The notes below the pieces were generated by a model. It was not told the DNA's origin. It was given only the letters and a program-made list of their open reading frames with translations, and made no database searches. Below are positions 18,736-63,535 of a stretch of 64,000 bases of DNA, in pieces (position 1 is the stretch's first letter; each line of letters opens with the position of its first letter). The stretch comes from Diphasiastrum complanatum. Its lineage: Eukaryota; Streptophyta; Lycopodiopsida; Lycopodiales; Lycopodiaceae. A program made the position numbers and the translations under genes. The DNA is taken from the NCBI GenBank assembly GCA_029204225.1, contig CM055096.1:44871967-44935966 (forward strand). The letters run 5' to 3'.

Positions 18736-18739
18736 TTAT

Positions 18740-28735: not shown

Positions 28736-29317
28736 ATGTCTTCAATGGGTTCATCCTTGTTGGAACCAAGTGAAAGATTGACCACTTCAAATTATTCAAT
28801 TTGGAAAATGAGGATGGAGTCCATCTTGATCCTTCAAGTGATGGACATAGTTCTTGGCCTTGAAGAAGAACCACAAGTTCTTTAAGAGGTTCAAAAATAC
28901 AAAAAGAGAGCTAGGATGGCTCTCCACTACATTAAGATGAATGTCTCTAATGAGATATTGAGGGAGATAGGTACTTGTACAACAGCCAAAGAAGCTTGGG
29001 ATTGTCTCAAGACTATCTATGAGGCTAAGAATACCTCTAGGCTTCTCACTCTTAGGAATCAAATCTTTCAAAGTAGCCAAAAGAGTGATGAGAGTGCATC
29101 TAGTTATGTTTTGAGAGTAAAAGATATTCATAGAGAGCTTGCTTGCATTGGTGATTCCATCAATCAAAATGAGCTAGTTCAAGTCATTCTCAATGGCTTG
29201 AGAAGTGAATTTGATAACCTTGTCCAATCCTATGCCATTAAGGAGGAGCTACCAAGTTTGGAGGCTCTCCAAAGTGTGCTTTTTCAGAAGAATCAAGACA
29301 AGAGTACAAGCTCTTGA
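28736..29317 (+). pseudogene. Element E gag, damaged
   Basis: The same gag as F from the ATG at 28736. Compared with F it has a 3-bp loss after LILQ and a C-to-T change that makes a stop (TAA) after the codons for EEPQVL. The frame then reopens to TGA at 29315-29317. The capsid landmarks ALHYIKMNVSNEIL, TSRLLTLRNQIF and LVQVILNGL are intact. The one-base gag/pol frame change is shared with F. Confidence 0.85.
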
Positions 29318-31299: not shown

Positions 31300-31527
31300 T
31301 CACACAACAATTCATTTGAAACATTTATCTTTATGATACGTAGAGCCATCTTAGCTCTCTTTTTGTTCTTTTGGACCTCTTGGAGCTCTTGAGGCTCCTC
31401 TTCAAGTCCTAGCACAATCTTCATCACATCTTGGAGCACCAAATGGACTCCATTCTAGGCTTCCAAATAGAATAGTTGGAGGTAGATAGTCTCTCACTAG
31501 ATTCCAATAGAAAGGAACCCATAGATG
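31300..31527 (-). pseudogene. Element J gag N-terminal fragment
   Basis: In element orientation the ATG at 31527 opens MASMGSFLLESSERLSTSNY; after a one-base shift follow VLQDVMKIVLGLEEEP and the ALHYIKMNVSNE-like KMALRIIKINVSNELL. This is the start of a copia gag related to B and E. It ends at the E junction. Confidence 0.85.
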
Positions 31528-32258
31528 CCATATAATAGTGAAGACTCATTGTGATTTAGACAATAAAATGTTGCTTCTCTCTCACTATAGTTTCCTTGAA
31601 AGGTGTACTACCAACTCCTATGCAAGATCTTGCAACAAAATGTGAGATTGATCTCACTAGCTCTACCAATCTCTCTCAAACTAGATCAACCTCTCATCAA
31701 TTGATGGAGTATAGGCAATGTTTGGGTCAAACTATCTTTGGCATGTGTGAAACACTCCAAGAATCCACAAATCACTCAAATACAAGCCAATTTTATGAAA
31801 GAAAGTGGGTATGACCTCAAAATGATTACTAGATCTCAAATAGATGACATTGGCAAGCCTCTTCTTGAATTTTTTGGTCAAACTAGCAAGATATGATCAA
31901 ACCAAATGTGTCCATACAGGTCTAGGTGCCCTACCTAACCCTTTTCAAAATCTTATAACTTTTGATTGGCTCACCAAATGGATTGAAACAAATTGCCACA
32001 AAAACTAGACAAAACTAGCTTTCAAACAAGCTGTCTAGCACCAAATTTGGATCTAACTTGGAAGAGAACCGACCAAATGAATTTGGCTATCCTTCACATG
32101 TGTCTGAGTCTGTACAGTACTAGAATCCATATGATAATGAATCCTCTTGATCCAAATTTGTTTGAGATAGCATGGGAGATGCAATCAACACTCTCTAGAT
32201 CTTGATTTTCATGAAAATTTTGAAACTATAAATGATAGATGCATCAAAAGCTTAGGTA
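31528..32258 (-). other. Element J leader
   Basis: Untranslated sequence between primer site and gag. Like the B and E leaders it carries a 'gtctgagtctgtacagtac' type segment, next to CACATGTG, and the phrase 'agccaatcaaaagttataag'. This shows common ancestry of J, B and E leaders. No gene. Confidence 0.65.
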
Positions 32259-32271
32259 GGCTCTGATACCA
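32259..32271 (-). other. Element J primer-binding site
   Basis: In element orientation TGGTATCAGAGCC, complementary to initiator tRNA-Met, directly after the 5' LTR. Confidence 0.92.
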
Positions 32272-33075
32272 TGTGAAAATTCACACATGTGGGAATGTGC
32301 TAATGTGTGAAATTGATCTCCTAAGCTTGGATCATGCACTATAGATCACCTACTGATTGAAATCCGAGATCAATGACCATTCTACATGCATTCATTCATT
32401 ACCAAAAGGTGTTTCACATGTGTGGAAGACTTCATGAAATAAACTAAGTCCCAACAAGCTCCTCTCCTCGGTTAGAGAGAGAAAATACCACTTTTGGGCT
32501 CATCTAGAGAAGGCAATACAAGCAAAATTGGCAAATCTCCAAATTGACTCAAAAACTCATAGATCTCTCATACATTAATGAAGGGAATGAAAGCACATAT
32601 AGAAACTCGTGGAGATCCATGCTTGATTCTTATTGGACCCCTTAAACATATGCTCTGTAATCCTATTGGATGTGTGATGCAACATCCCTCACTTTTGATT
32701 GGACCCTTCCAACACATCTCTCTCTTATGAAAAAGACCCTTTGACTTTTGCCACTACATAGGGTGCATCACTCATCAAATCTAAACTTGACATGTGTAAG
32801 CAACTTAATTCGCTCGAGTCACATAACAATTGAATTTTGGCCTAATCATGACAAAACATGTGTACTTGAGCTTTTGATTTCTAAAGCCAAAATTGGCCCT
32901 ATCAAAGTTCTACACCAAGATGCTTGATACAAAATCTTTATGATACCCCTAAAGTCAACATGACTAAACTATTTTTACTTTTTCTACATGTGGGAACATG
33001 CTTCACACATGTGATATTTTCTCACAAACTAGAAACATAATAAATATCCAAGATAGATTTTGACAATTTTTCACA
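32272..33075 (-). repeat. Element J 5' LTR (804 bp)
   Basis: In element orientation it starts TGTGAAAAATTGTCAAAATC and ends GTGAATTTTCACA. It is followed outward by the duplication acgaa (33076-33080). A 20-bp and a 4-bp indel plus dispersed substitutions separate it from the 3' copy. Confidence 0.88.
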
Positions 33076-46253: not shown

Positions 46254-46258
46254 CATAC

Positions 46259-47078
46259 TGTGAGAAATTGGCAAAAATCTAGCTTGGTATTTTTTATGAT
46301 AGAAGTTTGTAAGTGAATCTCACATGTGTAGAGGATGTTCCCACGTGTGGAGAATTGTAAAGTAAATCAAAATGTTTGATATAGGGGTCTCATAGAATTT
46401 CATAGTCAAGCATTTAGGTGTAGGATGTTGATAGGGTCAAATTTGGCATAGATGGCAAATTATCCATTTCCACTTGTAATGCCAATATTGAGCCAAAATA
46501 GAGCCAAACTTGTGCCAATTAGAGTGTAGACAAGTGTCATGTTTTTGTTTGATGAAGCTTAAGAGGTCCAATAGGATTTAGAAGTGGAACCTTGTGAGGT
46601 CCAATAGAAAATTGAGGTGTGCTTGAATATAGTCCAATAGAATTTAGAGGTGCATGGATCAATGGTCCAATAGGATTAAGAGGTGGCAAAGTGTGATCCA
46701 ATCATAGTTAAGCATAGTGGTAGCTCATGAATCTATTAGTATCATTGTACTCCTCCTTTTGGATCTAATTGATTTTGAGATTGAGTGGATTTTGAGTGTC
46801 ATTGAATTTCTAGCTTTCTCTCTCTACCCGAGAGCTCATGATGGTTTTTCTCTCTCTACCCGAGGAGAGCAGCTTGTTTTTACTTAGAATACTTTTGGAA
46901 CACTTTCCACACGTGTGAGTGAGAGTTGGAAGTGATTGAATGCATGTAGTAGTGTGTTTTTGCCATAGAATCAAAGATAGATCTTGAATCTCAATCTAGT
47001 CTTGATCTTGGTGCATCTACACACCTTAGGAGATCACAAGTACATGTAGTGGACAATCCACACGTGTGAAATTCAACA
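46259..47078 (+). repeat. Element B 5' LTR (820 bp)
   Basis: TGTGAGAAATTGG...GAAATTCAACA. Contains CCACGTGTGG (46341-46350) and CACACGTGTG at 46908-46917 and 47059-47068, plus CT-rich blocks 46812-46866. Confidence 0.95.
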
Positions 47079-47091
47079 TGGTATCAGAGCC
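47079..47091 (+). other. Element B primer-binding site
   Basis: TGGTATCAGAGCC, complementary to initiator tRNA-Met. The leader 47092-47835 follows; it is close to the E leader. Confidence 0.94.
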
Positions 47092-47835
47092 TACCTAAGG
47101 TTACCATGCATTTTGATCCATTTGAGTGAAAACTATTCATCAATCTTGAGCTAGAAATTGTCAAGGCCCATTTTCCTAGCTATCTTGTTCAATTTTGGAT
47201 CAAAAGAGATCAAACGGACATTGATTGGGTCTGACCTGGTACTGTACGGAATCAGGTGCTCAGACACGTGTGAGGAACATCCAATTTCAGTTTGGGAGTT
47301 CTCTTTCATGTTTGATCCAAAAATCTTGCTAGATAGCTTGTTTTGAAGCTATTTTTGTCTAATTTCTGATGCAATCAGTTTCATTCCATTTGGTTGAGCC
47401 AATCAAAAGTTATAAGCTTTTGAAGAGGGTTAGGTAGGGCACCTAGATCTGGGTGGACACATTTGGTTTGGTCAAAAGATTGCTTGTTTGATCCAAAATC
47501 ACAGTTGAATGCTTACCAATCTCATCTATATGTGATCTAGGCACTGTTTTGAGATCTTAGCCATTTTGTTTCATGCAATATCATTGTATTTGAGTCAAAT
47601 TTGGTTTCTTAGTGTATTTCACACGTGCTAAGAGTGTTTGATCCTAACTTTGCCCATACTCCATCATTTGATGTGAAGTAGATCTAGTTTTGGAGAGATT
47701 GAGATAGCTACTGAGAATCATCTCACAGTTTGTTGCAAGATCTTGCATAGGAGATGGTAGCACACCATTATTGGATCCTATAGTGAGAGAGAAGCAACAT
47801 TTTTTGTTCATCACTTTTATTTATCTCCACTTTAC

Positions 47836-50409
47836 ATGACTTCAATGAGTTCATACTTGTTGCAACCAAGTGAGAGATTGTCTACTTCCAATTATTCAAT
47901 ATGGAAGTTGAGGATGGAGTCCATCTTGATACTCCAAGGTGTGATGGACATTGTACTTGGGATTGAGGAGGAGCCTCAAGTCCTTCAAGAAGTACAAAAA
48001 TACAAGAAGAGAGCTAGGATGGCTCTCCACTACATTAAGATGAATGTCTCTAATGAGATATTGAGGGAGATTGGTGATTGTTCTAAATCCAAGGAAGCTT
48101 GGGATTGTCTCAAGTCCATCTATGAGGCTAAGAACACCTCTAGGCTCCTCACTCTTAGAAATCAAATATTCCAAAGTAGTCAAAAGAGTGATGAGAGTGC
48201 ATCTAATTATGTTTTGAGAGTCAAGGATATTCATAGGGAGCTTGCATGTATTGGTGACTCAATCAATCAAAGTGAGCTAGTCCAAGTCATTCTCAATGGC
48301 TTGAGAGATGAATATGACAACCTTGTCCAATCCTATGCTATTAAGGAGGAGCTACCAAGTTTGGAGGCCCTTCAAAGTGTGCTTATTTCTGAAGATTCAA
48401 GACAAGAGTACAAACTCTTGAGGATGGACAAGCTATCACTCAATCATGATGATGGCAAAGTTCTATTTGCCAAGCACAAAGAGAGGAGTAAGAAGCAACA
48501 TCATCACTTATCTAATGACAAAGCTAAAGACCAAGATGGAGAGGAGGAGAATACCTCTCATGCTTCTAATTCAAATCTCAAGAAGAAGATGATCAAGTGC
48601 TTTTATTGTGGGAAGAAAGACCATTATGCCACCAATTGCTTCAAGAAGAAGAATCAACTCAATCAAGCCAACATCACCAATGAGAAAGAAGACTATATTG
48701 CAAGTGATGGAGAAGGCTCTCTTATGGCATCAAGCTTCTCCTCTTCCACCTTCAACAAAGATGACTCATGGTATATTGATAGTGGAGCATCTTCACATAT
48801 GTGTGGCTCCAAGCACTTTTTTTCATCTATTATGTCTTATGATGGAGTTAAGAAGACCATATACTTTGCAAGTAAGCATGAGTGCAATATTGAAGGAGTA
48901 TGGATTATTCCCTTGAAGCTTGCATCTTCTAAAGATCTCTTTCTCAACAATGTTCTTTTTGTCCCAAAGCTTACAAAGAACATCTTAAGTGCTGGCCAAC
49001 TTCTTGATAGTGGCTTTGATGTCAATTTCAATATTGACAATTGTGTAATTAAGAAGGATGGTGAGATCCTTGCATATGGATCAAGATTTGAAGGCATCTA
49101 CAAATTGGATCCAAGTGAGAGTGCAAACTCTCTTGATGTTTCTTATATTTCCAATATTTCAAAGGAGGAGGATTACACAAGATGCACATATCTTCTCTCT
49201 TCAAGTATTATGGTGTATGATTATTCCTTATTATTCAAAGCATATGTTGAGAAGAAATTCTCATTGAAGATCAAAGCTTTGAGGAGTATTGGAGCTCTTG
49301 AAGGAATAGCACCATATGAAGTTTTATTCAAGATGAAGCCTAAGGTTGATCACCTTAGTGAACTTGGTAGTGCTTGCTTTGCACATATTCCCTTGGAAAC
49401 AAGAAGGAAGGATGATCCAAACTCATGGATCATGATTGGATACTCATCCATCAAGGAGGCCTTTAGTGTCTTTACACTCTCTATTTCAAATGTGATCGTG
49501 AATAGAGATGTCATATTGCATGAAGATTCAATCTTGGAAGTGGCCGAGATCAAGGCTTCTCAAGAAGCATCACAAATTATCCTTTTTGAAGGTATTCAAG
49601 TTATGATGGGGCCAATGTGTGAGGAGGAGTTTCTTCTTCATATGATTTCAAGAAGATCTTCAAGATGCATGGCTGAGTCTTTATGGCTCACCTTACATGG
49701 CAAAGAGGGGCATCTTTCATGTTGTATCTACTACAACACATTCATATATGCTTCTCTTCCTTTGCTTGAAATGCTATCTTGCTTCATTGAATTTTTTGGA
49801 TCTCAAAGTTCAAGAAAAGCTATACTAGTTTTGTATGATGCTTATGATATGGACATGTTTCTTGTCATTATTGACTTAGATGTGTTTCCAATACTTTTTG
49901 AAAGCAAGATATTGTATTGTCAAAAGTATGCTCTTGGTTCTAGTAAGAACAAGATTGAGCTTGGTACTCACTTTTTTGAAAATCATGTTTTCACATGTTT
50001 TGAGGCAAATTGTAAACTCCTCTTGAGATTAAGTGAAGCATCCAAAGTGGACACTTACATCCTTGAGAGAGTAACTAGCCTAAAAAAGATCAAGATAGTC
50101 TTTGATATCAAGATTAGATCCATCATGGATATAGTTCATTGTATGTGGACTAGTCAAGCTAGAAAGCATAATCTTGATAATCATCATTGTTTCACATCTT
50201 ATGATCTTGATCTCCATAATCCTTATGAGGCTTGGAAGCCTCAGATTTCTCTATTTATGGTGCATCCATCATGCAAGTGGAACTTTCAAGGCAAATATCA
50301 TCATCAAGCATGGAGGAAGCCCATGATAATAGTGGCATATTGGTGGAGCACTCTTCAAAGGCATTGGCAAGAGATCTCTACCAAAGAGATCTTATCATGG
50401 ATATGGTGA
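47836..50409 (+). CDS. Element B 857-codon polyprotein: gag-protease with catalytically dead pol remainder
   Basis: In frame without a stop: capsid (RLSTSNYSIWKLRMESIL, ALHYIKMNVSNEIL, TSRLLTLRNQIF, LVQVILNGL), zinc knuckle CFYCGKKDHYATNC, protease WYIDSGASSHMCGS and its second half (LFVPKLTKNILSAGQLL). Right after the protease the frame jumps to integrase pieces (DYTRCTYLL, FKAYVEKKFSLKIKALRS, then YEVLFKMKPKVDHL and CFAHIPLETRRKDDP). The segments with the three catalytic acids are gone, through deletions that keep the frame. The last 270 codons replace RT/RNase H with a region that matches J (KLLLRLSEAS, IRSIMDIVHCMWTSQAR, ISTKEILSWIW) and has LVLYDAYDMDMF where YVDD would be expected. Gag and protease may still work; integration and reverse transcription must come from elsewhere. 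Confidence 0.85.
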   Translation: MTSMSSYLLQPSERLSTSNYSIWKLRMESILILQGVMDIVLGIEEEPQVLQEVQKYKKRARMALHYIKMNVSNEILREIGDCSKSKEAWDCLKSIYEAKNTSRLLTLRNQIFQSSQKSDESASNYVLRVKDIHRELACIGDSINQSELVQVILNGLRDEYDNLVQSYAIKEELPSLEALQSVLISEDSRQEYKLLRMDKLSLNHDDGKVLFAKHKERSKKQHHHLSNDKAKDQDGEEENTSHASNSNLKKKMIKCFYCGKKDHYATNCFKKKNQLNQANITNEKEDYIASDGEGSLMASSFSSSTFNKDDSWYIDSGASSHMCGSKHFFSSIMSYDGVKKTIYFASKHECNIEGVWIIPLKLASSKDLFLNNVLFVPKLTKNILSAGQLLDSGFDVNFNIDNCVIKKDGEILAYGSRFEGIYKLDPSESANSLDVSYISNISKEEDYTRCTYLLSSSIMVYDYSLLFKAYVEKKFSLKIKALRSIGALEGIAPYEVLFKMKPKVDHLSELGSACFAHIPLETRRKDDPNSWIMIGYSSIKEAFSVFTLSISNVIVNRDVILHEDSILEVAEIKASQEASQIILFEGIQVMMGPMCEEEFLLHMISRRSSRCMAESLWLTLHGKEGHLSCCIYYNTFIYASLPLLEMLSCFIEFFGSQSSRKAILVLYDAYDMDMFLVIIDLDVFPILFESKILYCQKYALGSSKNKIELGTHFFENHVFTCFEANCKLLLRLSEASKVDTYILERVTSLKKIKIVFDIKIRSIMDIVHCMWTSQARKHNLDNHHCFTSYDLDLHNPYEAWKPQISLFMVHPSCKWNFQGKYHHQAWRKPMIIVAYWWSTLQRHWQEISTKEILSWIW

Positions 50410-50535
50410 GGGTGCTGCTATGATGGATCCCTTGGCTGATCTTCACTTCTTATGCATACCAAAGGATCCACTCAAAAAGATTTACAAACTTCTCAAGTGA
50501 TCTAGTATCTTTCCAAGCTATTTTTTGAGGAGGAG

Positions 50536-50704
50536 TGTGAGAAATTGGCAAAAATCTAGCTTGGTATTTTTTATAATAGAAGTTTGTAAGTGAATCTCAC
50601 ATGTGTGGAGGATGTTCCCACGTGTGGAGAATTGTAAAGTAAATCAAAATGTTTGATATAGGGGTCTCATAGAATTTCATAGTCAAGCATTTAGGTGTAG
50701 GATG
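50536..50704 (+). repeat. Element B 3' LTR, first part
   Basis: Begins TGTGAGAAATTGG after the purine run GAGGAGGAG and runs to the C insertion. Its last five bases, GGATG (50700-50704), are the C target duplication. Confidence 0.95.
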
Positions 50705-51379
50705 TGTTGAAAATTGTCACTTCTCACTTGACATTGGTTCATGTAAATATTGATCAAACATTAGAATATGTTGATGATATGATTTCACACGTGTGGAGCA
50801 TGTTCCCATGTGTGAAAGGATGTACTTTTCATGTTTGTATATATCCAAATTGATTTTGTATCATTCTAGTTAGTGTGAACATGAAATGACTAGTTTTTAG
50901 TCAAGTTGACTAGTCACCTACAAATTAGCTTTTCCTTGCATGTGCATGAGTAAATGCTCCCACATGGCAAGTGGATGTTCACATGTGTGTATAGAGTACT
51001 AGAAGATAAGAGTTGACCATTTTCCTTAGATCCTATTTTGTAGGGAATATTCCTATATTCTAGGAGACTAGCTTTTTGGATTTTAGTCATATTCTAGAAG
51101 GTCAACTATTGGATAAGGATCAAGGATGGATCAAATGGATAGATATGAGTGATGTGGCACTCTTCACACGTGTGAAGGCCTGCTGGACTGTACCAGACTC
51201 ATGGATGTACTTGATCCATAAAAGGATCATCATTTTGCTAAGAAAATTGATGAGACTTTTGCACTCTACACTTTTGTGAGATTTCTAGTCATTTGTCTTG
51301 TGATTTTTATGCATGATTGCTATCTAGTATCATTGTACTTGTTGTTTCAGGTGCAGGCCGTACAGTGGACAGTACTCCA
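50705..51379 (+). repeat. Element C 5' LTR, first part
   Basis: Starts TGTTGAAAATTGTCACTTC. Holds CACACGTGTG at 50786-50795 and 51165-51174 and CCGTAC at 51358-51363. Ends with CTCCA (51375-51379), the D target. Confidence 0.95.
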
Positions 51380-52032
51380 TGTGAAAAATTGTCAACTAGT
51401 AGTATTTTCCTAACTTGAGATTTTGTAGGCCTATGGCCAAATAAAAGTTAGAGATAGGTTCATACATGTATGTAGAGGCCCAAAGTATGTGTACACTACT
51501 TTTGAGGTCACATTAATTAGAGGAGGTCGAGTGTGGAGCTCTTCTATTGGCTCATAATTTGGTGCATTCCTATTTGACCAAATTTCTAGGTATATGGGTG
51601 AATCCTATTGGACCCCAATTTTAGCCTATCATAAGACAAGTGGCCAAGAGGCACTATGGCTGCTATAAATAGCCATCTCCACGAGTATGTACATATCTCA
51701 TTTTCATTCTATTGAATGAATGTTATGCTCTTTGAAGGTCCATCTTCTTCTCTCTCACTTTTTTGTTCATATCTTGCATTCTAGCCACTAGAATTGTGAT
51801 TTCTTTGTTGCTATGGCTTCACACGTGTGAAATGCAGGTTGTAGGCTCTGAAGTACGGACAGGGACAGCAAGTTTCTGTTTGTGGAAGCTTATGATCAGA
51901 TTTTGATGTTTAGTTGATGTTTAGTATGCTTAACATCACAATTTCTATCATTTTTTCAATCTAGATGTGCATAACTTCCATGGCCAAGATCTTTATGAAA
52001 CTTTAGCATCTTTTGGATCTGAGTTTTTCACA
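51380..52032 (+). repeat. Element D 5' LTR (653 bp)
   Basis: TGTGAAAAATTGTC...GAGTTTTTCACA. Contains a TATA box (51664-51672), CACACGTGTG (51820-51829) and GTACGG (51853-51858). Confidence 0.96.
51664..51672 (+). promoter_or_regulatory. Element D LTR TATA box
   Basis: TATAAATAG within 'gctgctataaatagccatc'; an RNA start about 30 bp downstream would put the U3/R boundary near 51700. The same motif is in the 3' LTR at 56872-56880, from where it could read out into neighbouring sequence. Confidence 0.7.
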
Positions 52033-52044
52033 TGGTATCAGAGC
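52033..52044 (+). other. Element D primer-binding site
   Basis: TGGTATCAGAGC, initiator tRNA-Met complement, directly after the LTR. Confidence 0.94.
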
Positions 52045-52641
52045 ATTAGGCGGCCAAATGTGCAGGTTTTGCCAGATTTAGAAGAGATTTGTGGGCGAGT
52101 TTGCTTTTGTAGCATTCCAATCAAGTTTCTAGCTAAAAATCTTGTTGATTTATGTGTAGAAATTGGATCTTTGTGATCAAAACATCATTTGTATGCATTT
52201 CAATTGAAGTAGGGCGAATTCCCTCTGTACTTATCAGAATAAGGAGACAAAAATTGTTTTGGAAAGAGGGAGATGCAAGATCCAACAAGATCCTATTAGT
52301 TTTCCATTCTAGCATATAGTTTTTTGATTCAATTTCTTGCTTCTTCATGTCAAAAACTTCAAAATTGATGTAACCCTCTGATTTTCAGTTTTCTGAATGA
52401 TTCAAGAGTGTATTTCAATCTTAGGAGTGAGGGAAAAGCAAGTATATTGAGGTTTGGTCTTGGTTTGATCAAGAAATCATAAAACTAGTGGCTAAAATTA
52501 AGGAAAAAGTGAGGAAAAGAGAGAAAAAGTAAGGTTTTAGGTTCCAAATCTTTGTGATTTCTTCTTGTGTTTCATTTGTTGATTCAAGAGAGTGCTTAGT
52601 GCATTGGAACAGGTCAAAGATCAGAGATCAATCATTGCAAC

Positions 52642-55600
52642 ATGGCTACAAATGGAGGCTACATGTTGGAAAGCAATGATAGGCTTACCTCCCTCAACTA
52701 TTCTACTTGGAAAGTAAGGATGGAGTCTTTGCTTGAGATGAATGAGTTGATGGATATTGTTGTAGGTGTGGAGGAGAGACCTTTGGCACCTCAAGAACAA
52801 TTGAGGTATGACAAGAGGGCAAAGAAAGCCCTTCACATGATCAAGATGAATGTGACAAATGAGCTTATCAAAGAGGTTGGTAAGTGCACATCATCTAGTG
52901 AAGCTTGGGAAGCCTTGAAGAAGGTTTATGAATCCAAGTCTACTTCTAGAGTGTTGACTTTAAGAAGGCAAATCTTTTCTTGTATGCAAAAGAAGAGTGA
53001 GAATGGACATGCTTTTGTTTTGAGAGTTAAAGCATTGAATGATGAGTTAGCATGCATTAATGATGGCATAAATAATGAGGAGCTTGTTCAAGTGATTCTC
53101 AATGGCTTGTTGGATGATCATGCTAATCTTGTTCAAAGTTATGCTATCCAAAAATGTTTACCAAGTGTTGGAGACTTGCAAGAGGTCTTGTTGGCTGAAG
53201 AATTCAGGTTGCAAGCAAGAGTGGGAGCATCTTCTACATCTCAAGGAGGAGAAGAGGAGGCAATGTTCTCTAAAGGCAAGTTCAAGGGCAAAGGTAAAAG
53301 CAATTGGTCTAAAGGGCAAGACCAAGGTGAGCACTCTACTTTTGGCAAAAAGAAGGATAGATCTAAGCTAAAATGTTTCTATTGTGGAGTCAAAGGGCAT
53401 TTTGCTAGTGATTGTTTTAAGAAAAAGAGGGATCAAGGGGAAAAGCAAACCAATCTAACTATTGATGAGGGTGGGGATGAGCTTCTTTCAAATGATGCTT
53501 TTGTTATGTCATCTTGCTTGTTGGCTAATCATGGAGACATTGATCCTTGGTGGATTGATAGTGGAGCCACTTCTCATATGACATATCATAAAGAGTATTT
53601 TTCATCTTTAATGGCATTTGATGGTGATAGGAAGGTAATCTATACCGCAAATGATGGTGAGTGTGCAATCAAGGGGATTGGCACAATTCCTATTTCACTT
53701 TCTACAAATAGGAATATAGAATTGAAAGATGTTTTGCTCATTCCATCCATTACCAAGAACTTACTTAGTGTAAGCCAAATGCTTGACAAAGGATTCAAAG
53801 TTGAGTTTGATGGTGATGCTTGCTTGATCAAAAAGGGGTGTAGTATCATTGCAAAAGGGAAAAGGCAAGGGAAATTGTTCAAGCTTGATGCATGTGTTGT
53901 TGCTAACCAAGTTGGATGCATGGCAAATGAACAAATGTCAATTCAAGAGGTATGGCATAAAAGGATGGGACATCTCAACTACAAGGCCTTGGAGGAAATA
54001 GCCAAAAAGGAGGTAGTAAGGGGACTTCCCAAGTCTCTTACTTGCTTGAATCATGTTTGTGAAGAATGTGCTTTGTCTAAATCACATAGATTGCCATATA
54101 CTAGATCTATATCTAGATCTAAGATGCCTTTTTCTCTCTTGCATTCGGATATTCATGGTGTTACTACAATTAGCAATGGAGGTGCTAAGATGTATGTAAC
54201 TTTCATTGATGATTTTAGTAGATTTTGTTGGGTTTATCTACTAAAGAGCAAGGATGAGGTGTTTGATGTGTTTGTCAAGTTCAAAGTTGCTATTGAGACT
54301 CAATTTACAACCAAAATCAAATGCTTGAGGAGCGACAATGGTGGTGAATACATTTCTAACAAATTCAAAGCCTTTTGCGATGAGCATGGGATCAAGAGGG
54401 AGTACACATGTCCAAGAACACCACAACAAAATGGAGTGGCCGAGAGGAAGAATAGAACCTTGTGTGAGAGTGCAAAGGCAATGAGATTGAATGCTAATCT
54501 TCCTAAACCTTTTTGGAGTGATGCTTTGTTGTGTGCAAATTTCCTATGCAATAGATGGCCAAGTGTTGTATTGGAAGGAAAAACCCCTTTTGAAGCTTTG
54601 TTTGGTACGAAGCCTAATGTCAAGTTTCTAAGAACTTTTGGATGCATTTGCTACTTCAACATTACTCTTGATGATAGAACTAAGGAGGATCCATCTTCAA
54701 GAAAGGGCATTTTTGTTGGTTATAGTGAAGTAAGCAAAGCATATAGGATTTATGTTCCTTCAATCAAGAAAGTGTTCACAAGTAGGGATGTCATTTTTGA
54801 TGAAGGTAACATTCCAAAAGTTGTTTCAAGTGATGATGGTGTTGTTGCAACTAATGTGCTTGATGACAATGGAGTTGATGACACATTGGATGTGGATGTT
54901 GAAGAAGCCTCTTCAAGTCAAATTCCAAGGAGAACTCCAAGGCATAAAGTGAAACCCTCAAGGCTCACTTATGATGGCAAAGGTAAGCAAGTGGTGGATG
55001 GATCCAACTATGCTTTCCTAACTTCTTTTGATGTACCTTCATGTGTAGATGAAGCAAGGCAAGAAGAGGAATGGATCCAAGCAATGGATCTTGAGTTTGA
55101 AGCACTTATGAAGAACAACACATGGAGATTGGTGGAGCTTCCAAAGGGCAAAAGTGCAATTGGATGCAAATGGATCTTCAAGGTAAAGACAAATCAAGAT
55201 GGATCTATCAACAAGTTGAAGGCAAGGTTGGTGGCTAAAGGTTATGCTCAAGAGCATGGCATTGACTATGAGGAAACCTTTGCACCCGTGGCAAAGATGG
55301 TGAGCATAAGAGTAATCATTTCCCTTGCAACTCTTTATGGATGGGATCTTTGGCAATTAGACATTTCTAATGCTTTCTTGAATGGTGATCTTGAAGAGGA
55401 AGTCTACATGGAGCAACCCGAGAGCTATGTTTCTCATAGCAAGCCTAATCATGTGTGTTTTCTACAAAAAAGTTTGTATGGTCTTAAGCAAGCACCAAGG
55501 AGTTGGTATGCTAGGCTTAACTCTTTTCTACTTTCTCAAAACTTCACTATGAGTGAGTATGATCATTCACTTTACTTTAGAATTAGTGCTAATGATGTTA

Positions 55601-56592
55601 CAATCCTTCTAATTTATGTGGATGACATTATTTTAAGTGGAGGGAACAAGGAAGATATAGAAGATATCAAGAAAGCACTAAAAAAGGAATTTGAAGTGCA
55701 TGATCTTGGTCTTTTGAGCTATATCTTAGGAATAGAAGTAATTAGAACTTCTCAAATCACTTTTATTTCACAAGAGAAGTATGCTATTTCTATTCTCAAT
55801 AGATTTCATATGGTAGATGCAAATCCTATTGATACACCTATGGAATCACATGTAAAGCTAACTATAAGAGGTAATGAAAGATCCTTCGAGGACATTACTC
55901 TCTATAGGAAGCTAATAGGTTCTCTTATATATCTAACCATCACAAGACCTGATTTATCTTATTGTGTTGGTAGATTAAGCCAATTCATGCAAGATCCTAG
56001 CATAGAACATTGGAAACTAGGAAAGAGGATCTTGAGATACATCTCGGGAACAAAAGATTTTGGCATTGTTTATAGAGGCTCATCACCTAACTTATTTGGT
56101 TTTTCAGATTCAGATTTTGCAGGAGACCTTATGGATAGAAAATCCATAAATGCACATGCTATTTTCATAGGTGATGGAGCTATCTCATGGATGTCGAAGA
56201 AACAAGCAACTATATCACTTTCTTCTAGTGAGGCCGAGTACAAAGCTTTGACATCATGCACAAAGGAGATGGTGTGGATCAAGAGGATGATTATGGAGCT
56301 TCATTTGCTGGATTTTTCAGAGAGTCCAATCATCTTTTGTGACAACCTTTCAGCCCAAAGTCTAGCAAGCAATCCGGTTTTCCATGCAAGGAGCAAACAT
56401 ATCGAGGTGGCTTACCATTTTGTGAGAGAACAAGTGTTGGCAAAAGAGATCAAGCTTGAACATGTCCCATCAAAGGAATGTGTGGCTGATATCTTTACCA
56501 AAGCATTGGGAAAGGACTTATTTTTCAAGCATAGAACAAGTCTTGGTGTACTTTCTAAATCTATGCTAAAACTAGTTGAAGAGGGAGTGTGA
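52642..56592 (+). CDS. Element D gag-pol polyprotein, 1316 aa, intact
   Basis: Single frame from ATG 52642. Domains by residue: capsid 1-200 (LNYSTWKVRMESLL, LVQVILNGLLDDH); zinc knuckle CFYCGVKGHFASDC from 245; protease with DSGATSHM, catalytic Asp 306; pre-integrase zinc region from about 437 (WHKRMGHLNYKA, CEECALSKSH); integrase core with Asp 503, Asp 565 and Glu 601, the D,D-35-E spacing; RT with GCKWIFKVKTNQDGSINK, LDISNAFLNGDLEEE and YVDD at 992-995; RNase H from about 1157 (FSDSDFAGD, SSSEAEYKALTS, HARSKHIEVAYHFVRE) and the ADIFTKAL end. The protein would be cut by its own protease into capsid and enzymes of a cytoplasmic particle. The TGA stop lies two bases inside the 3' LTR. No missing key residue was seen. 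Confidence 0.96.
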   Translation: MATNGGYMLESNDRLTSLNYSTWKVRMESLLEMNELMDIVVGVEERPLAPQEQLRYDKRAKKALHMIKMNVTNELIKEVGKCTSSSEAWEALKKVYESKSTSRVLTLRRQIFSCMQKKSENGHAFVLRVKALNDELACINDGINNEELVQVILNGLLDDHANLVQSYAIQKCLPSVGDLQEVLLAEEFRLQARVGASSTSQGGEEEAMFSKGKFKGKGKSNWSKGQDQGEHSTFGKKKDRSKLKCFYCGVKGHFASDCFKKKRDQGEKQTNLTIDEGGDELLSNDAFVMSSCLLANHGDIDPWWIDSGATSHMTYHKEYFSSLMAFDGDRKVIYTANDGECAIKGIGTIPISLSTNRNIELKDVLLIPSITKNLLSVSQMLDKGFKVEFDGDACLIKKGCSIIAKGKRQGKLFKLDACVVANQVGCMANEQMSIQEVWHKRMGHLNYKALEEIAKKEVVRGLPKSLTCLNHVCEECALSKSHRLPYTRSISRSKMPFSLLHSDIHGVTTISNGGAKMYVTFIDDFSRFCWVYLLKSKDEVFDVFVKFKVAIETQFTTKIKCLRSDNGGEYISNKFKAFCDEHGIKREYTCPRTPQQNGVAERKNRTLCESAKAMRLNANLPKPFWSDALLCANFLCNRWPSVVLEGKTPFEALFGTKPNVKFLRTFGCICYFNITLDDRTKEDPSSRKGIFVGYSEVSKAYRIYVPSIKKVFTSRDVIFDEGNIPKVVSSDDGVVATNVLDDNGVDDTLDVDVEEASSSQIPRRTPRHKVKPSRLTYDGKGKQVVDGSNYAFLTSFDVPSCVDEARQEEEWIQAMDLEFEALMKNNTWRLVELPKGKSAIGCKWIFKVKTNQDGSINKLKARLVAKGYAQEHGIDYEETFAPVAKMVSIRVIISLATLYGWDLWQLDISNAFLNGDLEEEVYMEQPESYVSHSKPNHVCFLQKSLYGLKQAPRSWYARLNSFLLSQNFTMSEYDHSLYFRISANDVTILLIYVDDIILSGGNKEDIEDIKKALKKEFEVHDLGLLSYILGIEVIRTSQITFISQEKYAISILNRFHMVDANPIDTPMESHVKLTIRGNERSFEDITLYRKLIGSLIYLTITRPDLSYCVGRLSQFMQDPSIEHWKLGKRILRYISGTKDFGIVYRGSSPNLFGFSDSDFAGDLMDRKSINAHAIFIGDGAISWMSKKQATISLSSSEAEYKALTSCTKEMVWIKRMIMELHLLDFSESPIIFCDNLSAQSLASNPVFHARSKHIEVAYHFVREQVLAKEIKLEHVPSKECVADIFTKALGKDLFFKHRTSLGVLSKSMLKLVEEGV

Positions 56593-57240
56593 AAAATTGT
56601 CAACTAGTAGTATTTTCCTAACTTGAGATTTTGTAGGCCTATGGCCAAATAAAAGTTAGAGATAGGTTCATACATGTATGTAGAGGCCCAAAGTATGTGT
56701 ACACTACTTTTGAGGTCACATTAATTAGAGGAGGTCGAGTGTGGAGCTCTTCTATTGGCTCATAATTTGGTGCATTCCTATTTGACCAAATTTCTAGGTA
56801 TATGGGTGAATCCTATTGGACCCCAATTTTAGCCTATCATAAGACAAGTGGCCAAGAGGCACTATGGCTGCTATAAATAGCCATCTCCACGAGTATGTAC
56901 ATATCTCATTTTCATTCTATTGAATGAATGTTATGCTCTTTGAAGGTCCATCTTCTTCTCTCTCACTTTTTTGTTCATATCTTGCATTCTAGCCACTAGA
57001 ATTGTGATTTCTTTGTTGCTATGGCTTCACACGTGTGAAATGCAGGTTATAGGCTCTGAAGTACGGACAGGGACAGCAAGTTTCTGTTTGTGGAAGCTTA
57101 TGATCAGATTTTGATGTTTAGTTGATGTTTAGTATGCTTAACATCACAATTTCTATCATTTTTTCAATCTAGATGTGCATAACTTCCATGGCCAAGATCT
57201 TTATGAAACTTTAGCATCTTTTGGATCTGAGTTTTTCACA
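56588..57240 (+). repeat. Element D 3' LTR (653 bp)
   Basis: Preceded by the purine tract GAAGAGGGAG, which also codes for the last residues of pol. One difference from the 5' LTR. Confidence 0.96.
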
Positions 57241-57245
57241 CTCCA

Positions 57246-57432
57246 CACGTGTGAAGCCGCTCTCACTAAAAAATGATGTGTTGATCCATTGCTCTTGCTT
57301 AAATCCAAGTGTAGTGAATCTAGATCAAGATCTAATGTGTAGAACTTGATAGATTCATTGATTAAGCAACCAATAACTCTCTATGATTGTAAAGTACAAT
57401 CATTATTGTCCTAAAAACTGTAAAATTTATCA
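57246..57432 (+). repeat. Element C 5' LTR, second part
   Basis: Resumes after the duplicated CTCCA and ends ACTGTAAAATTTATCA, matching 62693-62879. Confidence 0.95.
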
Positions 57433-57445
57433 TGGTATCAGAGCT
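57433..57445 (+). other. Element C primer-binding site
   Basis: TGGTATCAGAGCT directly after the LTR; the first 12 bases match the initiator tRNA-Met site. The leader to 58027 contains CACACGTGTG (57596-57605) followed by CCGTAC (57609-57614). Confidence 0.93.
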
Positions 57446-58027
57446 AAGTAAGAGAGTGATCATTGAATCATAAATCTTGTAAAGATCATTGGCAAAATTT
57501 GTTTTTTGGCCAATACTAGTGAGGGCGAGTTCTTCTAGAGTGATAGCTTGTAATCATTTGGATCAAAACGACTTGGAGGCTGTGTATGTACTTTTCACAC
57601 GTGTGAAACCGTACAGCAACTTTCAATTCAAGTTACTTTGTGTTTTTTGGTCCTAAAATCACAATACTAGTTCATTTTTGGTGCTTTTTGAAGCATAGTA
57701 TTGATCTAGATTCATTCTAACTAATGCCTATGACCAAATAGTGTTTTGGATCATTGAAGCATTTCTTTTTAGAGTCTAAGATCAGATCTAAGAGGCTGAT
57801 TTGTTCAGATCCTTAGTTGAAGTGAAATCTCTAAGAAAAGTGTAAAGCAATTTTTTTTGTGAGAGTGAAAGCTAGAAATTTTTGGTAAGATCTTTGAGTA
57901 TCATTCAAGCTTGTGTGTTAGTTTGATAGAGACAAGCCTATAGGCATTCTAGTAAGCTTTAGGCCACTTCATAGATCTTTTAAAATTCAAAAATCTTTGT
58001 GATTTTTAAAAGAGCATTCATTCTAAA

Positions 58028-61000
58028 ATGTCATCCATGGGTGGATATTTGATGGAACCAAGTGAGAGACTCACTTCCACAAATTATTCCATTTGGAAAG
58101 TGAGAATGGAATCACTCCTAGTGATCCATGATCTATATGACATAGTTCAAGGAGTAGAGGAAGAGCCTCAAACCAAGAACAAGCCAAATACAAGAAGAGA
58201 GCAAGATTAGCTCTACATTGCATAAAGTTAAATGTATGCAATGACCTCTTGAAAGAGGTGTCTTCTTGTACCTCATCCAAAGAGGCTTGGGATTCATTAA
58301 AGAGCATTTATGAATCCAACAATACTTCAAGAATCCTCATGCTAAGAAATCAAGTTTTCCAAAGCATGAAAGGAAGTGGAGAGAGTGGACAAGAGTATGT
58401 TCTTAGGATCAAATCTCTTAACAAGGAGTTAAGTGCAATAGGAGAGAAGATCCAAGATCAAGAACTAGTACAAATCATTTTGAATGGTCTAAGTGATGAG
58501 TTTACCAACTTAGTCCAATCATTTGCCATTCAAGACTCTCTTCCATCCATTGAAAAGTTGCACAATGTTCTTGTGGCCGAGGAGAGTAGGCTTCTACACC
58601 TCAAGACAAGAATGGATAGCATGTCACTTAATGGAGGAGAGGAGAAAGCTAACTTTACATCTAAAGGCAAGAAAAAGCAAAATTCATTCAAGAAAAATCA
58701 AGGCAAGGAGGCCGAGATGAAGAATGGAGGATCTACCTCCAAAGGCAAAGTGAAGAACAAGGCAAAACTAAAGTGTTTCTTTTGTGGAAAGAAAGGACAC
58801 TTTGCCTCAGAATGCTACTTGAAGAAGAATCAACAAGCCAAAGGAGATCAAGGGAACATTGCTCAAGAGGAAGAATATGAGGATGGATTCAACACATCCT
58901 TAATGGTTGCATCTACACCAACTTCAAGTCAAGACACATGGTGGATAGATAGTGGGGCTAGTTCCCACATGTCCTTTAACAAGCATTATTTTTCTACTCT
59001 TCTATCTTGTAATGACTCTAAGAAGTCAATATACACTGCTAGTGATCAAGCATGCAAGATAGATGGCATAGGATCTATACCTCTTTGTTTAGGCACATCT
59101 AAAAGGATAGATCTAGATAATGTTTTGTATGTTCCTACCATTTCAAGAAACTTGCTTAGTGTAGGACAATTAATGGACAATGGACTAGATGTACATTTCA
59201 AGAATGGAGTTTGTTCCATCTTGAAAAATGATAAGTGCATAGCTAGTGGCATTAAGCAAGGTAGACTTTTCAAGTTGGATGCTAATGTTGCAAGTGAAAG
59301 TGTGAACTTGGCTAGGGAGGAGCTAACTCAAGTGGAGCTTTGGCATAAGAGATTAGGCCATCCTAATCTTCAATCTATGGAGTCAATGGCAAGCAAGGAA
59401 CTAGCTCTCGGCCTACCAAGAGCTTTCAAGAAGTGTGGAAAAATGTGTGAGGCATGTGGCCTTGCAAAGTCACACAAATCTTCTTACAAGAAATCTTCAT
59501 CAAGATCTCTCTCTCCCTTGGATCTCATACATTCTGATGTACATAGTTTTTCACATGCAAGTAATGGAGGTGCCTTGATGTATGTAACTTTTATAGATGA
59601 TTGTACTAGATTCACATGGATTGAGTTACTATCAAAGAAAAATCTTGTTTATGAAGCTTTCATTAAGTTCAAGTCTCTAGTAGAGAAACAACTTAGTACT
59701 TCTATCAAAGCACTAAGATGTGATAATGGAGGAGAGTACACCTCCAATAAAATGAAAGACTTTTGTGAGATCAATGGTATTAAGTTACAATACACTTGTT
59801 CCTACACCCCTCAACAAAATGGGGTGGCCGAGAGGAAAAATAGGAGTCTATGTGAGTGTGCAAAGTCCTTGAGGCTTGATGCATCACTTCCCATCTCATT
59901 TTGGGGAGAAGCCATAACATGTGCTAATTATTTGTGTAATAGACTTCCTAGTAGTGCTATAGATGGGATCTCACCTTATCAAGCCTTGTTTGATAAGAAA
60001 CCCAATGTAAAATATTTTAAGATCTTTGGATGTACTTGTTATGTACACATTCCTTTGGAGACTAGAAGGAAAGAAGATGCTACCTCCTTCAAAGGAATCT
60101 TTGTTGGCTATGGAGAAAATAGCAAGGGATATAGGATATATGATCCTACATCCAAGAAAGTAAAGGTAAGCAAGGATGTACTTTTTGATGAGTCACAATT
60201 TGCTAAGAGCTTGTCAAATGGATCTAACCCATTGTGCATTGAAGATCTTGACAAATCCGAGGAGGATCTTGACAAACCCGAGGAGGATCATGACAAACCC
60301 GAGGATGGAGATTTGGATCCAAGTCAAAAGGGGCCAAGAAGATCATCAAGGAGCAAGGCCGAGCCCTCAAGGCTTACCTATGTGGACAAGGGAAAGCAAA
60401 AGGAAGGCTCTACATCTTCTACCTCTTACTCTTTTTTAGCTACATTGATTGAAGAACCATCATCTTTTGAAGAAGCATGTAAATCTAAAGTTTGGAGAGA
60501 TGCAATGCAAGTAGAGTATGATGCATTAGAAGAAAATCATACTTGGAATCTTGTAAATCTTCCAAGAGGAAAGAAACCACTTGCATGTAAGTGGATTTAT
60601 AGAATTAAGTACAATCAAGATGGATCTATTAGTAAATACAAAGCTAGGCTTGTTGCTAAGGGATTTCTTCAAATAAAAGGATTGGATTATGAAGAAACAT
60701 TTGCACCTGTAGCTAAGCTTGTAACTATTAGATTAATCATTTGCATTGCTACTTTGTTCAAATGGGATCTCTACCAAATGGATGTGACAAATGCCTTCTT
60801 GAATGGCTTCTTAGAAGAGGAAATCTACATGATGCAACCCGAGGGCTTCATCAAGATTGGTGAGGAGCAAAAGGTGTGCTACTTAAGGAAGAGCCTATAT
60901 GGCTTGAAGCAAGCACCTAGAGCTTGGTACTCTAGGTTGCATGATTTTCTCTATTCCCTTGGCTTTGTACTAAGTGCTTATGAACCTTCTTTATATTTCA

Positions 61001-62004
61001 AATGTAATGAAGGAAAGATCATCATTTTGGTTCTTTATGTTGATGACATCATTATGACAGGAAATGATGATGATGGCATAGGCAAAGTAAAAGTTGACTT
61101 ATCTAGTGAGTTCAAGATGGTAGATCTAGGCTTCCTAAAGTTTATACTTGGGATAGAAGTGTCTAGAAGTAGCAATTGTACTTTCATAAGTCAATCTAAG
61201 TATGCTACTTCCATTCTTGAAAGATTTGGTATGAAAGATTGTAAGGGGATTGACACCCCTATGGAGCATGTTGTGAAAGCAACTAATGAAGGTGATGAAG
61301 CATCCTTTGAGGACATCACTCTCTTTAGGAAGCTTATAGGCTCTCTAATCTATTTAACCATCACTAGACCTGACTTAAGTTTTTGTGTAAGCAAGTTGAG
61401 TCAAAGTATGCAAGCTCCTTTAATTCATCATTGGAAAAGTGCCAAGAGAGTACTTAGATATGTTTCTAGTACTAGATTTTTTGGTATACTTTATGAAGGA
61501 TCTAACTTGCACTTGAGAGCCTACTCGGATTCAGATTTTGCAGGTGACAAGATGGATAGGAAGTCCATTAGTGCATTTGCAACATTTCTTTGTGGAGGAG
61601 TGATATCTTGGCTTTCCAAAAAGCAAGATACAATCTCACTATCTTCTTGTGAAGCCGAGTACAAGGCATTGACTTCAACAACCAAAGAGCTCTTATGGCT
61701 AAGAAGACTCTTGATGGAACTACATGTGCTAGAGGCCGAGGAGATCCCTTACATATTTTGTGACAATCAAGCTTCTCAACAAATTGCTTCAAATCCTATC
61801 TTCCATGCTAGAACAAAGCATATTGAGATAGCTCACCACTTTGTGAGGGAGAAGGTACAATCCAAGGAAGTGCAACTACATCATGTACCATCATCCGAAT
61901 GCATAGCTGATATCTTAACCAAACCATTGTCCAAAGATCCATTTTTTAAGTTAAGATATGCTCTTGGAATTGTAGATAGATGTACACTAGATTTGCCAAG
62001 TTAG
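58028..62004 (+). pseudogene. Element C gag-pol with one frameshift in gag
   Basis: Gag starts at ATG 58028 (MSSMGGYLMEPSERLTSTNY, SIWKVRMESLLV) and runs out of frame near 58175, where one base appears to be missing between the codons for EEEPQ and KYKKRAR; that frame stops at 58208-58210. The correct frame then stays open to TAG at 62002-62004. It holds TSRILMLRNQVFQSM, zinc knuckle CFFCGKKGHFASEC, protease WWIDSGASSHMSF, pre-integrase ELWHKRLGHPN, integrase motifs IHSDVHS, LRCDNGGEYTS and NGVAERKNR, RT with MDVTNAFLNG and LYVDDIIM (Asp codons at 61042 and 61045), and RNase H with YSDSDFAGD, SSCEAEYKAL and HARTKHIEIAHHFVRE. All catalytic residues are present. With one LTR difference and one indel this is a very recently disabled copy, or a sequencing error in a working one. 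Confidence 0.92.
60244..60306 (+). repeat. 21-bp in-frame tandem repeat, three copies, in element C pol
   Basis: Encodes DLDKSEE, DLDKPEE and DHDKPED in the linker between integrase and RT. It is an acidic spacer not seen in D or E. The expansion keeps the frame. Confidence 0.9.
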
Positions 62005-62017
62005 AAGTGAGGAGGAG

Positions 62018-62879
62018 TGTTGAAAATTGTCACTTCTCACTTGACATTGGTTCATGTAAATATTGATCAAACATTAGAATATGTTGATGATATGATTTCA
62101 CACGTGTGGAGCATGTTCCCATGTGTGAAAGGATGTACTTTTCATGTTTGTATATATCCAAATTGATTTTGTATCATTCTAGTTAGTGTGAACATGAAAT
62201 GACTAGTTTTTAGTCAAGTTGACTAGTCACCTACAAATTAGCTTTTCCTTGCATGTGCATGAGTAAATGCTCCCACATGGCAAGTGGATGTTCACATGTG
62301 TGTATAGAGTACTAGAAGATAAGAGTTGACCATTTTCCTTAGATCCTATTTTGTAGGGAATATTCCTATATTCCAGGAGACTAGCTTTTTGGATTTTAGT
62401 CATATTCTAGAAGGTCAACTATTGGATAAGGATCAAGGATGGATCAAATGGATAGATATGAGTGATGTGGCACTCTTCACACGTGTGAAGGCCTGCTGGA
62501 CTGTACCAGACTCATGGATGTACTTGATCCATAAAAGGATCATCATTTTGCTAAGAAAATTGATGAGACTTTTGCACTCTACACTTTTGTGAGATTTCTA
62601 GTCATTTGTCTTGTGATTTTTATGCATGATTGCTATCTAGTATCATTGTACTTGTTGTTTCAGGTGCAGGCCGTACAGTGGACAGTACTCCACACGTGTG
62701 AAGCCGCTCTCACTAAAAAATGATGTGTTGATCCATTGCTCTTGCTTAAATCCAAGTGTAGTGAATCTAGATCAAGATCTAATGTGTAGAACTTGATAGA
62801 TTCATTGATTAAGCAACCAATAACTCTCTATGATTGTAAAGTACAATCATTATTGTCCTAAAAACTGTAAAATTTATCA
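62018..62879 (+). repeat. Element C 3' LTR (862 bp)
   Basis: Unbroken copy with CCGTAC (62671-62676) 14 bp before CACACGTGTG (62691-62700); shows what D interrupted in the 5' copy. Confidence 0.96.
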
Positions 62880-62884
62880 GGATG

Positions 62885-63535
62885 TTGATAGGGTCAAATT
62901 TGGCATAGATGGCAAATTATCCATTTCCACTTGTAATGCCAATATTGAGCCAAAATAGAGCCAAACTTGTGCCAATTAGAGTGTAGACAAGTGTCATGCT
63001 TTTGTTTGATGAAGCTTAAGAGGTCCAATAGGATTTAGAGGTGGAACCTTGTGAGGTCCAATAGAAAATTGAGGTGTGCTTGAATATAGTCCAATAGAAT
63101 TTAGAGGTGCATGGATCAATGGTCCAATAGGATTAAGAGGTGGCAAAGTGTGATCCAATCATAGTTAAGCATAGTGGTAGCTCATGAATCTATTAGTATC
63201 ATTGTACTCCTCCTTTTGGATCTAATTGATTTTGAGATTGAGTGGATTTTGAGTGTCATTGAATTTCTAGCTTTCTCTCTCTACCCGAGAGCTCATGATG
63301 GTTTTTCTCTCTCTACCCGAGGAGAGCAGCTTGTTTTTACTTAGAATACTTTTGGAACACTTCCCACACGTGTGAGTGAGAGTTGGAAGTGATTGAATGC
63401 ATGTAGTAGTGTGTTTTTGCCATAGAATCAAAGATAGATCTTGAATCTCAATCTAGTCTTGATCTTGGTGCATCTACACACCTTAGGAGATCACAAGTAC
63501 ATGTAGTGGACAATCCACACGTGTGAAATTCAACA
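62885..63535 (+). repeat. Element B 3' LTR, second part
   Basis: Continues the B LTR from TTGATAGGGTC to GAAATTCAACA, followed by CATAC (63536-63540). Confidence 0.95.

Follow-up and report, generated by a model that had tools for sequence, protein, structure and literature searches.

A putative semi-autonomous Ty1/copia element of Diphasiastrum complanatum with a recombined, degenerate tail in one long open reading frame

Introduction

Non-autonomous elements account for a large share of some plant genomes, and the reason why certain of them keep long open frames devoid of enzymes is unsettled. LARD and TRIM elements have no coding capacity, TR-GAG elements are plant long terminal repeat (LTR) elements that code for Gag as their only domain and for no enzymes, and the copia element BARE-2 retains its enzymes without a functional Gag and depends on its partner BARE-1. 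Here we describe element B, a 5.1-kb LTR element found in a 64,000-nucleotide stretch of the Diphasiastrum complanatum genome (assembly GCA_029204225.1, contig CM055096.1, positions 44,871,967 to 44,935,966 of the forward strand), referred to as the window in the rest of the paper and used for all coordinates. We judge it slightly better than an even bet (probability of about 0.55) that B is a high-copy semi-autonomous Ty1/copia element that makes Gag and protease, borrows reverse transcriptase (RT) and integrase, and has a frame selected to be read to near its 3′ end.

Like BARE-2, B is a copia element needing a partner for a missing protein, but the situation is reversed, as BARE-2 lacks a functional Gag and has the enzymes while B has Gag and lacks the enzymes. 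Like TR-GAG elements, B codes for Gag without enzymes; unlike them, it carries in the same frame a protease region and a degenerate tail of 270 codons, which places it outside the TR-GAG definition, and its 857-codon open reading frame (ORF) separates it from LARD and TRIM elements. Further parallels exist in wheat, where RLG_Quinta presumably belongs to the gypsy superfamily. RLG_Sabrina_SA and RLG_WHAM are described in one study as semi-autonomous, high-copy wheat elements without RT or integrase (PMC9744471). As in B, Gag is kept (Gag and protease in RLG_Sabrina_SA), and protein sharing with an autonomous partner is assumed for both (PMC9744471); they are, however, Ty3/gypsy elements, whereas B is a Ty1/copia element with a long in-frame degenerate pol tail. 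RLG_Quinta of wheat centromeres has, according to PMC11302176, a single ORF coding for Gag and DUF1, a domain of unknown function, as well as a primer binding site (PBS) and LTR ends identical to those of its partner RLG_Cereba, a relationship that we liken to that between B and the A-type elements described below. The same study argues that template switching produced the mosaic RLG_Quinta lineages; B is likewise mosaic, probably through switching, the exchanged part being Gag in the centromeric RLG_Quinta and a 3′ tail block in B (PMC11302176). TARE1 was set aside as a parallel, being called autonomous by its authors (PMC3701649). A literature keyword search found no element recognisable as B among the matches listed.

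Results

Structure of element B

B has the structure of a Ty1/copia element, with LTRs, a 5-bp target-site duplication (TSD), a PBS and a polypurine tract (PPT) framing the ORF at 47836-50409. Its parts are the following.

46254..46258 (no strand): TSD CATAC, left copy, 5 bp; right copy at 63536-63540 (sequence)
46259..47078 (+): 5′ LTR, 820 bp, TGTGAG...TTCAACA (self-BLAST, sliding windows)
47079..47090 (+): PBS TGGTATCAGAGC (identical 12 bases in elements A2, C, D and J of the window)
47079..47835 (+): leader (sliding windows against A2 and J)
47836..50409 (+): ORF, 857 codons (open-frame list)
47914..48408 (+): Gag capsid region, Retrotran_gag_2 (Pfam)
48592..48642 (+): CCHC zinc knuckle, under the Pfam cut-off (Pfam scan)
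48769..49017 (+): protease region, Pol_BBD, with a DSGA motif (Pfam, sequence)
49171..49329 (+): integrase scraps, catalytic acids gone, frame preserved across gaps (protein alignment)
49330..49530 (+): integrase C-terminal SH3-like domain (Pfam)
49600..50406 (+): J-type tail (self-BLAST, sliding windows, profile comparison, substitution tests)
50410..50535 (+): 3′ untranslated stretch and PPT, ending TTTTTTGAGGAGGAG (sequence comparison)
50536..50705 (+): 3′ LTR, first part (self-BLAST)
62879..63535 (+): 3′ LTR, second part, separated from the first by element D (self-BLAST)

Three neighbouring elements serve for comparison.

18018..22773 (−): A, A-type copia element with interrupted frames, coding for RT (RVT_2 3e-70) and integrase (Pfam, self-BLAST)
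25020..33075 (−): J, interrupted by A2, with LTRs at 25020-25830 and 32271-33075 (self-BLAST)
25944-26804 (−): J tail frame, 286 codons (open-frame list)
27242..31299 (+): A2, second A-type copy, ending at the RT start (self-BLAST, sliding windows)

The frame of B is open through 857 codons from ATG to stop, as claimed in the original prediction, which a model had made from the sequence alone. Pfam detected Retrotran_gag_2 (3e-27), Pol_BBD (1e-20) and SH3_retrovirus (1e-12) in sequence, which is the copia-type order of gag, protease and integrase; rve, gag_pre-integrs and RVT_2 were not found by Pfam on the whole ORF. We take the DSGA motif to be that of the protease and TGGTATCAGAGC to be a PBS of the initiator-Met tRNA type. 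In a protein alignment with A, the closest enzyme-coding relative of the B backbone within the window, the integrase region of B shows five gaps. If we assign the catalytic residues correctly, gaps remove the first D and the E, and a substitution at a gap edge has replaced the second D, in keeping with the predicted loss of all three acids through in-frame deletions. The gaps do preserve the frame, since A2 aligns to B in one continuous reading frame from codon 185 to 614. B thus has neither the catalytic integrase nor the RT of an autonomous member (no rve, no RVT_2, acids gone), and both enzymes must come from elsewhere.

Copy number and age

A 43-mer from the tail matched 1,575 places in the 1.74-Gb genome with at most 3 mismatches (reversed control, 0), a count that includes haplotype and segmental duplicates. 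Under the same threshold, a 43-mer around YVDD of the A-type RT matched 2,675 places (control, 0), which may include other families as well as such duplicates, the 43-mer lying in a conserved block. By this one pair of 43-mers, tail copies do not outnumber A-type RT copies, a surplus that the original prediction had proposed looking for; neither is the tail confined to two copies in the genome, the outcome that it had named as telling against itself.

In a DNA search with the ORF, the best 40 of 3,547 first-look candidates had identities of about 99% or higher and differed from full length by at most 2 nt. We followed the sequence through 20 B loci (ranks 2 to 21 of the 40 scored) and found the frame open from ATG to the normal stop in 16. 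One of them, L009, represents the window locus on the second haplotype, and the flanks of L017 recur in L018 and L019; counted as distinct insertions from the top of this ranked list, the window copy and 15 of 17 others are open. Of the 20 loci, 16 could be dated; their LTRs diverge by 0-2.5%, four loci having no substitution and 15 having matching 5-bp TSDs. A stop at codon 150 in three B copies was considered as a sign that stop-bearing lineages move and rejected, the flanks being common to all three. A second set of 143 scored copies was ranked solely by the tail protein. In 71 of these the tail lies within a frame of at least 850 codons; two of the 71 contain a tail stop, leaving 69. The remaining 72 are broken upstream of the tail, the break being in gag in 35, in the integrase part in 30 and in the protease part in 7. 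The tail itself has no stop in 138 of the 143.

The B lineage replicates, as attested by its high copy number and recent insertions, and the claim that the region was passed on by transposition is supported. An ordinary dead copy with a frame open by accident would also have lost integrase and RT catalysis, but the 1,575 places, the young LTRs with TSDs and the 69 of 143 copies open over at least 850 codons leave this reading next to no chance, and we rejected it on copy number and age.

Origin of the tail

B is a mosaic, A-type and then J-type from about 49611, fused in frame. In 150-nt windows starting within the LTR, B matches A-type copies at 75-99% up to about 49559; beyond that point, through the 3′ untranslated region (UTR) and as far as the first part of U3, it matches J-type sequence at 69-88%. 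Position 49611 is an end of both the A and the J self-BLAST blocks. The 5′ LTR is J-type over its first 90-150 nt and A-type over the remainder. Most windows of the leader show 90-97% identity to A2, the one crossing its end 82%; the leader and the gag start also match J-type sequence in part, less closely than A2 (76-86% identity to J in places for the leader). Pooled synonymous divergence (dS) between B and 21 J-type loci is 1.08 in gag codons 1-99 and 0.28 in the tail. Because A-type similarity switches to J-type at about 49611, the RT of B was not lost through gradual decay, and the idea that the tail is this decayed RT was rejected. We conclude that the tail arrived in B by recombination and was degenerate beforehand.

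A B-type relative (L078 for the tail and L079 upstream, one locus on C12 at about 1.294-1.297 Mb) is 93-94% identical to B in the backbone and groups with B in the tail tree. Its distance from B is greater in the tail (dS 0.18) than in the backbone (dS 0.06-0.11), an unexplained discrepancy that might reflect more than one exchange.

The tail occurs in a second, more diverged family, the J-type. LTR identity between B and J is 65-66%, and the J frame is 58% identical to the B tail, both ending in ISTKEILSWIW, which agrees with the earlier description of a recognisable version in an element with clearly different LTRs. In the window copy the region upstream of the J tail is frame-broken, and the J LTRs differ at 50 of 787 sites, making J older than the B copies. 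Searching with the J tail at the protein level yielded 140 matches at 64-100% identity (136 scored of 16,502 first-look candidates). In 8 of 21 J-type loci analysed with 1.5-kb flanks, Gag up to about codon 99 is joined straight to the zinc-knuckle part (codon 208 on); L041, L053 and L055 retain more gag, and the other loci show less in the stretch examined. The zinc-knuckle part is followed by the SH3-like end and then by the tail. The whole series from Gag through knuckle and SH3 to tail is in a single frame in L043, as well as in L041 with one stop ahead of the tail; others are frame-broken. Several J-type loci (L030-L058) have thus lost half of the capsid and the protease while retaining a mini-Gag with a zinc knuckle.

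Searched alone, the tail (last 282 codons) and the J frame matched no Pfam family listed at E up to 10, HMMER filters removing most matches above 0.1 even at this setting, and a PDB search of the tail gave only a match at chance level (E 0.4). BLASTP of the tail against the A RT was marginal (E 0.002), and a semi-global score exceeded 300 shuffles for B, not for J. A profile comparison of 42 tails (defined below) with the RT parts of A, C and D was decisive for the N-terminal third only, where residues 13-95 (J numbering) resemble the integrase-RT linker and the RT start (score 65, E 3e-8; best of 30 column shuffles, 25.6). Residues 238-252 weakly resemble the RT block CKW.F.IK (score 29-30; best of 40 shuffles, 25.6 and 22.3). 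For residues 96-237 between them (about 140 codons, window about 49880-50310), which include RSIMD.VH.MWTSQAR common to B and J, the comparison recognised no source, and the flanking blocks map only about 16 residues apart in RT. The viral contigs searched contained no relative of the tail. These comparisons suggest that the tail is a degenerate integrase-RT linker and RT start, plus sequence of unclear origin. The earlier description of an RT position without catalytic motif therefore stands in that Pfam sees no RT signature, and needs amending in that the tail is RT-like in part (residues 13-95 and, weakly, 238-252). A hidden antisense or overlapping gene was ruled out, the five other frames all being closed.

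Selection along the frame

Purifying selection is strong on Gag and declines along the frame to about neutral in the tail. The ratio of nonsynonymous to synonymous divergence (dN/dS) between B and A is 0.12 in the Gag capsid (codons 1-195), 0.35 in the linker and nucleocapsid, 0.43 in the protease and 0.61 in the integrase scraps; the SH3 region (codons 500-575) gave 1.05 against A and 0.82 against A2. In the tail, dN/dS is 0.87 between B and J (269 codons), 0.91 against the 21 J-type loci and 0.92 between B and 40 other tails (95% bootstrap interval 0.70-1.24). The corresponding polymorphism ratio (pN/pS) was taken from variants with two or more occurrences in 21 B sequences (20 loci plus the window copy, duplicates retained); gag gave 0.36, the protease part 0.76 and the tail 0.96, and the value of 2.22 for the integrase part rests on 2 synonymous variants only. 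With a capsid dN/dS of 0.12, B has what distinguishes a semi-autonomous element, an intact Gag frame under purifying selection without RT or integrase.

A tail protein that is functional but fast-evolving, acting in RNA binding, assembly or interaction with partner enzymes and constrained at a minority of residues, is conceivable but doubtful. It would agree with the lack of clade-defining stops (see below), the identical C-termini of B and J, a dN/dS of 0.75 between B and its nearest relative L078 (268 codons) and values of 0.51-0.63 at residues 170-199 and 260-286. On the other side stand the overall ratio of 0.92 and the distribution of established tail variants over the three codon positions (104, 75 and 88, without excess at the third), the contrast between the low windows and the rest, which is not significant (P 0.15), and the failure to find a Pfam match or a PDB match above chance. 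The proposal that the tail was retained for a protein role of its own is not supported by these ratios.

Openness of the tail

The tail set comprised L030-L058, 20 tails hand-picked for length and lower identity, J, B and four B copies (55 rows), from which 13 near-duplicates (>98.5% identical) were removed to leave 42. Eight of the nine J-type loci dropped match their partner over all or almost all of the sequence, the 1.5-kb flanks included, the ninth, L062, being outside this comparison; since their flanks align, they are locus duplicates rather than insertions passing on a stop.

The codon table of the 42 tails contains 43 stops at 29 columns, and 16 rows are stop-free. Variants present in at least 3 tails comprise 151 nonsynonymous, 41 synonymous and 1 nonsense change (9.4 nonsense expected), and singletons comprise 427, 117 and 17 (26.8 nonsense expected). 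None of the 10 recurrent stop codons defines a clade among the 42 tails, compared to 19.0 expected on internal branches under neutrality (P(0) 6e-9); discounting the expectation by the stop shortage on terminal branches or among singletons gives 7.4-12.1 (P(0) 6e-4 to 6e-6). The closest approach is a stop in L055 and L066, two members of a three-member clade. The original prediction had set against itself a dN/dS near 1 combined with random stops; the first is what we observe, the second is not, no stop being clade-defining in the copies compared, which came from hits ranked by protein score. The same stops do recur in non-clade copies, at tail columns 54, 68, 115, 118, 181, 197, 229, 244, 266 and 280; five of these ten are TGG to TGA changes, possibly mutational hot spots.

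No stop separates the tails of B and J, compared to 6.6 or 9.5, depending on the model, in simulations of neutral change over about the B-J distance (190 events), in which 5 and 0 of 3,000 runs ended without a stop. The B-J gaps in the tail are 3, 3 and 9 nt long, whereas gap lengths not divisible by 3 prevail in the leader (8 of 10) and in the LTR (16 of 20); a nucleotide alignment started ahead of the switch point has gaps of 5 and 2 nt there in addition to the 9-nt gap. Stops average 1.0 in the tail frame and 12-30 in the five others.

A pure passenger, that is, a neutral remnant on a successful Gag element that owes its openness to recent ancestry and to the ranking of hits, would have a dN/dS of about 1 as observed, and the B copies are young enough for an open tail without selection. 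Ranking by protein score and the short supply of terminal-branch stops point the same way. We nevertheless consider this reading unlikely, given 0 clade-defining stops against 19 expected (7-12 discounted), 0 stops against 6.6-9.5 between B and J, gaps in threes in the tail, unlike the leader and LTR, and integrase gaps that preserve the frame. Retention as RNA or DNA (packaging, dimerisation, length) rather than as a reading frame is more improbable still: it would suit amino acids that look unconstrained and the inheritance of tail, 3′ UTR and U3 start as a single J-type block, but stops are few in one frame only, and an RNA constraint leaves the multiple-of-three gaps unexplained.

Candidate partner elements

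A-type elements are the best candidate donors of enzymes to B, which they would mobilise in trans. The PBS of B is that of A2, and its PPT and LTR ends are nearly so, the start of the B U3 being J-type; B and A thus share PBS, PPT and LTR ends, as a semi-autonomous element does with an enzyme-coding partner. In the window, as in the two further copies examined, the A-type RT has an open frame and YVDD, and the best 40 A-type RT matches show identities of about 99% or higher.

A and A2, whose overlap shows about 99% identity, are A-type pieces in inverted orientation, one without the 5′ part and the other without RT and 3′ LTR; possibly they represent one event split by rearrangement. Between A and B, the synonymous distance in Gag is 0.36-0.40 and the LTR distance about 0.1, and an LTR exchange between co-packaged RNAs is one possible way to obtain this difference.

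Other elements of the window

The 3′ LTR of B is interrupted by two nested copia elements.

50699..62879 (+): copia element D, inserted into the B 3′ LTR (self-BLAST)
51380-57240: copia element C, nested in D (self-BLAST)

LTR identity is 99.7-100% for D (aligned parts) and 99.8% for C, and their long copia ORFs code for 1251 and 1316 aa, respectively. Contig C3285 lacks D at the matching position (L009, 99.8-99.9% identical), so that the two haplotypes differ there by about 12 kb. Since it is missing from the other haplotype of a near-identical locus, the insertion of D is very recent. Self-BLAST also revealed a repeat pair at 11365-13829 and 35261-37768, 91% identical across 2.5 kb, with an extra partial copy at 33201-33905.

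Discussion

In our preferred reading of B as a semi-autonomous element, template switching between co-packaged RNAs would have created the A/J junction, and the RNA of B would be translated into Gag and protease plus the tail, with RT and integrase supplied in trans by enzyme-coding elements having matching PBS, PPT and LTR ends. The tail frame would be retained since ribosomes need to get near the 3′ end of the RNA, not for the protein sequence of the tail. In plants, early stops and long 3′ UTRs can set off RNA decay. The benefit to B and J-type RNAs may be escape from decay or silencing of RNAs with early stops or, equally, a link between translation and packaging. More tentatively, and with the odds rather against it, the tail may be translated ballast, about 270 recombined codons selected for openness and hardly for amino acids because translation to near the 3′ end would itself protect or package the RNA.

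Several points weigh against the preferred reading. Amino-acid constraint is possible at residues 170-199 and 260-286, where dN/dS is lower. Stops are scarce on terminal branches too (43 observed, 110 expected), so that ascertainment is strong, and the scarcity of frameshifts in the 42 tails proves nothing, since tails were ranked by protein score and 20 were hand-picked. The contrast in nonsense changes between shared variants and singletons reaches a P of only 0.055. Insertions relative to J, which lie outside the codon table, add five stops (two in L041, one in L064 and two in L066) and leave 14 of 42 tails stop-free. Both A-type copies of the window shift frame in gag near codon 185-202, and mobilisation by A-type elements as well as the cause of frame retention are inferred from sequence. 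The native 3′ UTR already includes part of the 820-bp LTR, which weakens an argument from 3′ UTR length. For the copia element EVD, PMC8892269 reports that silencing begins at a ribosome-stalling site on a short gag RNA, that this translation-dependent silencing targets the shorter RNA, and that the full-length RNA stays largely in the nucleus and undergoes little translation, the shorter one being the source of Gag. If B behaves like EVD, its tail is seldom translated and the proposed mechanism is weakened.

Within the single ORF of B, frame retention and amino-acid constraint separate, Gag being constrained and the tail not, with no inherited tail stop in the copies compared. B is a copia counterpart to the Gag-coding partner elements of wheat. 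If the pattern is confirmed in an unselected sample, it would become possible to test whether transposon genes are shaped through their translation, by RNA quality control or by translation-coupled silencing.

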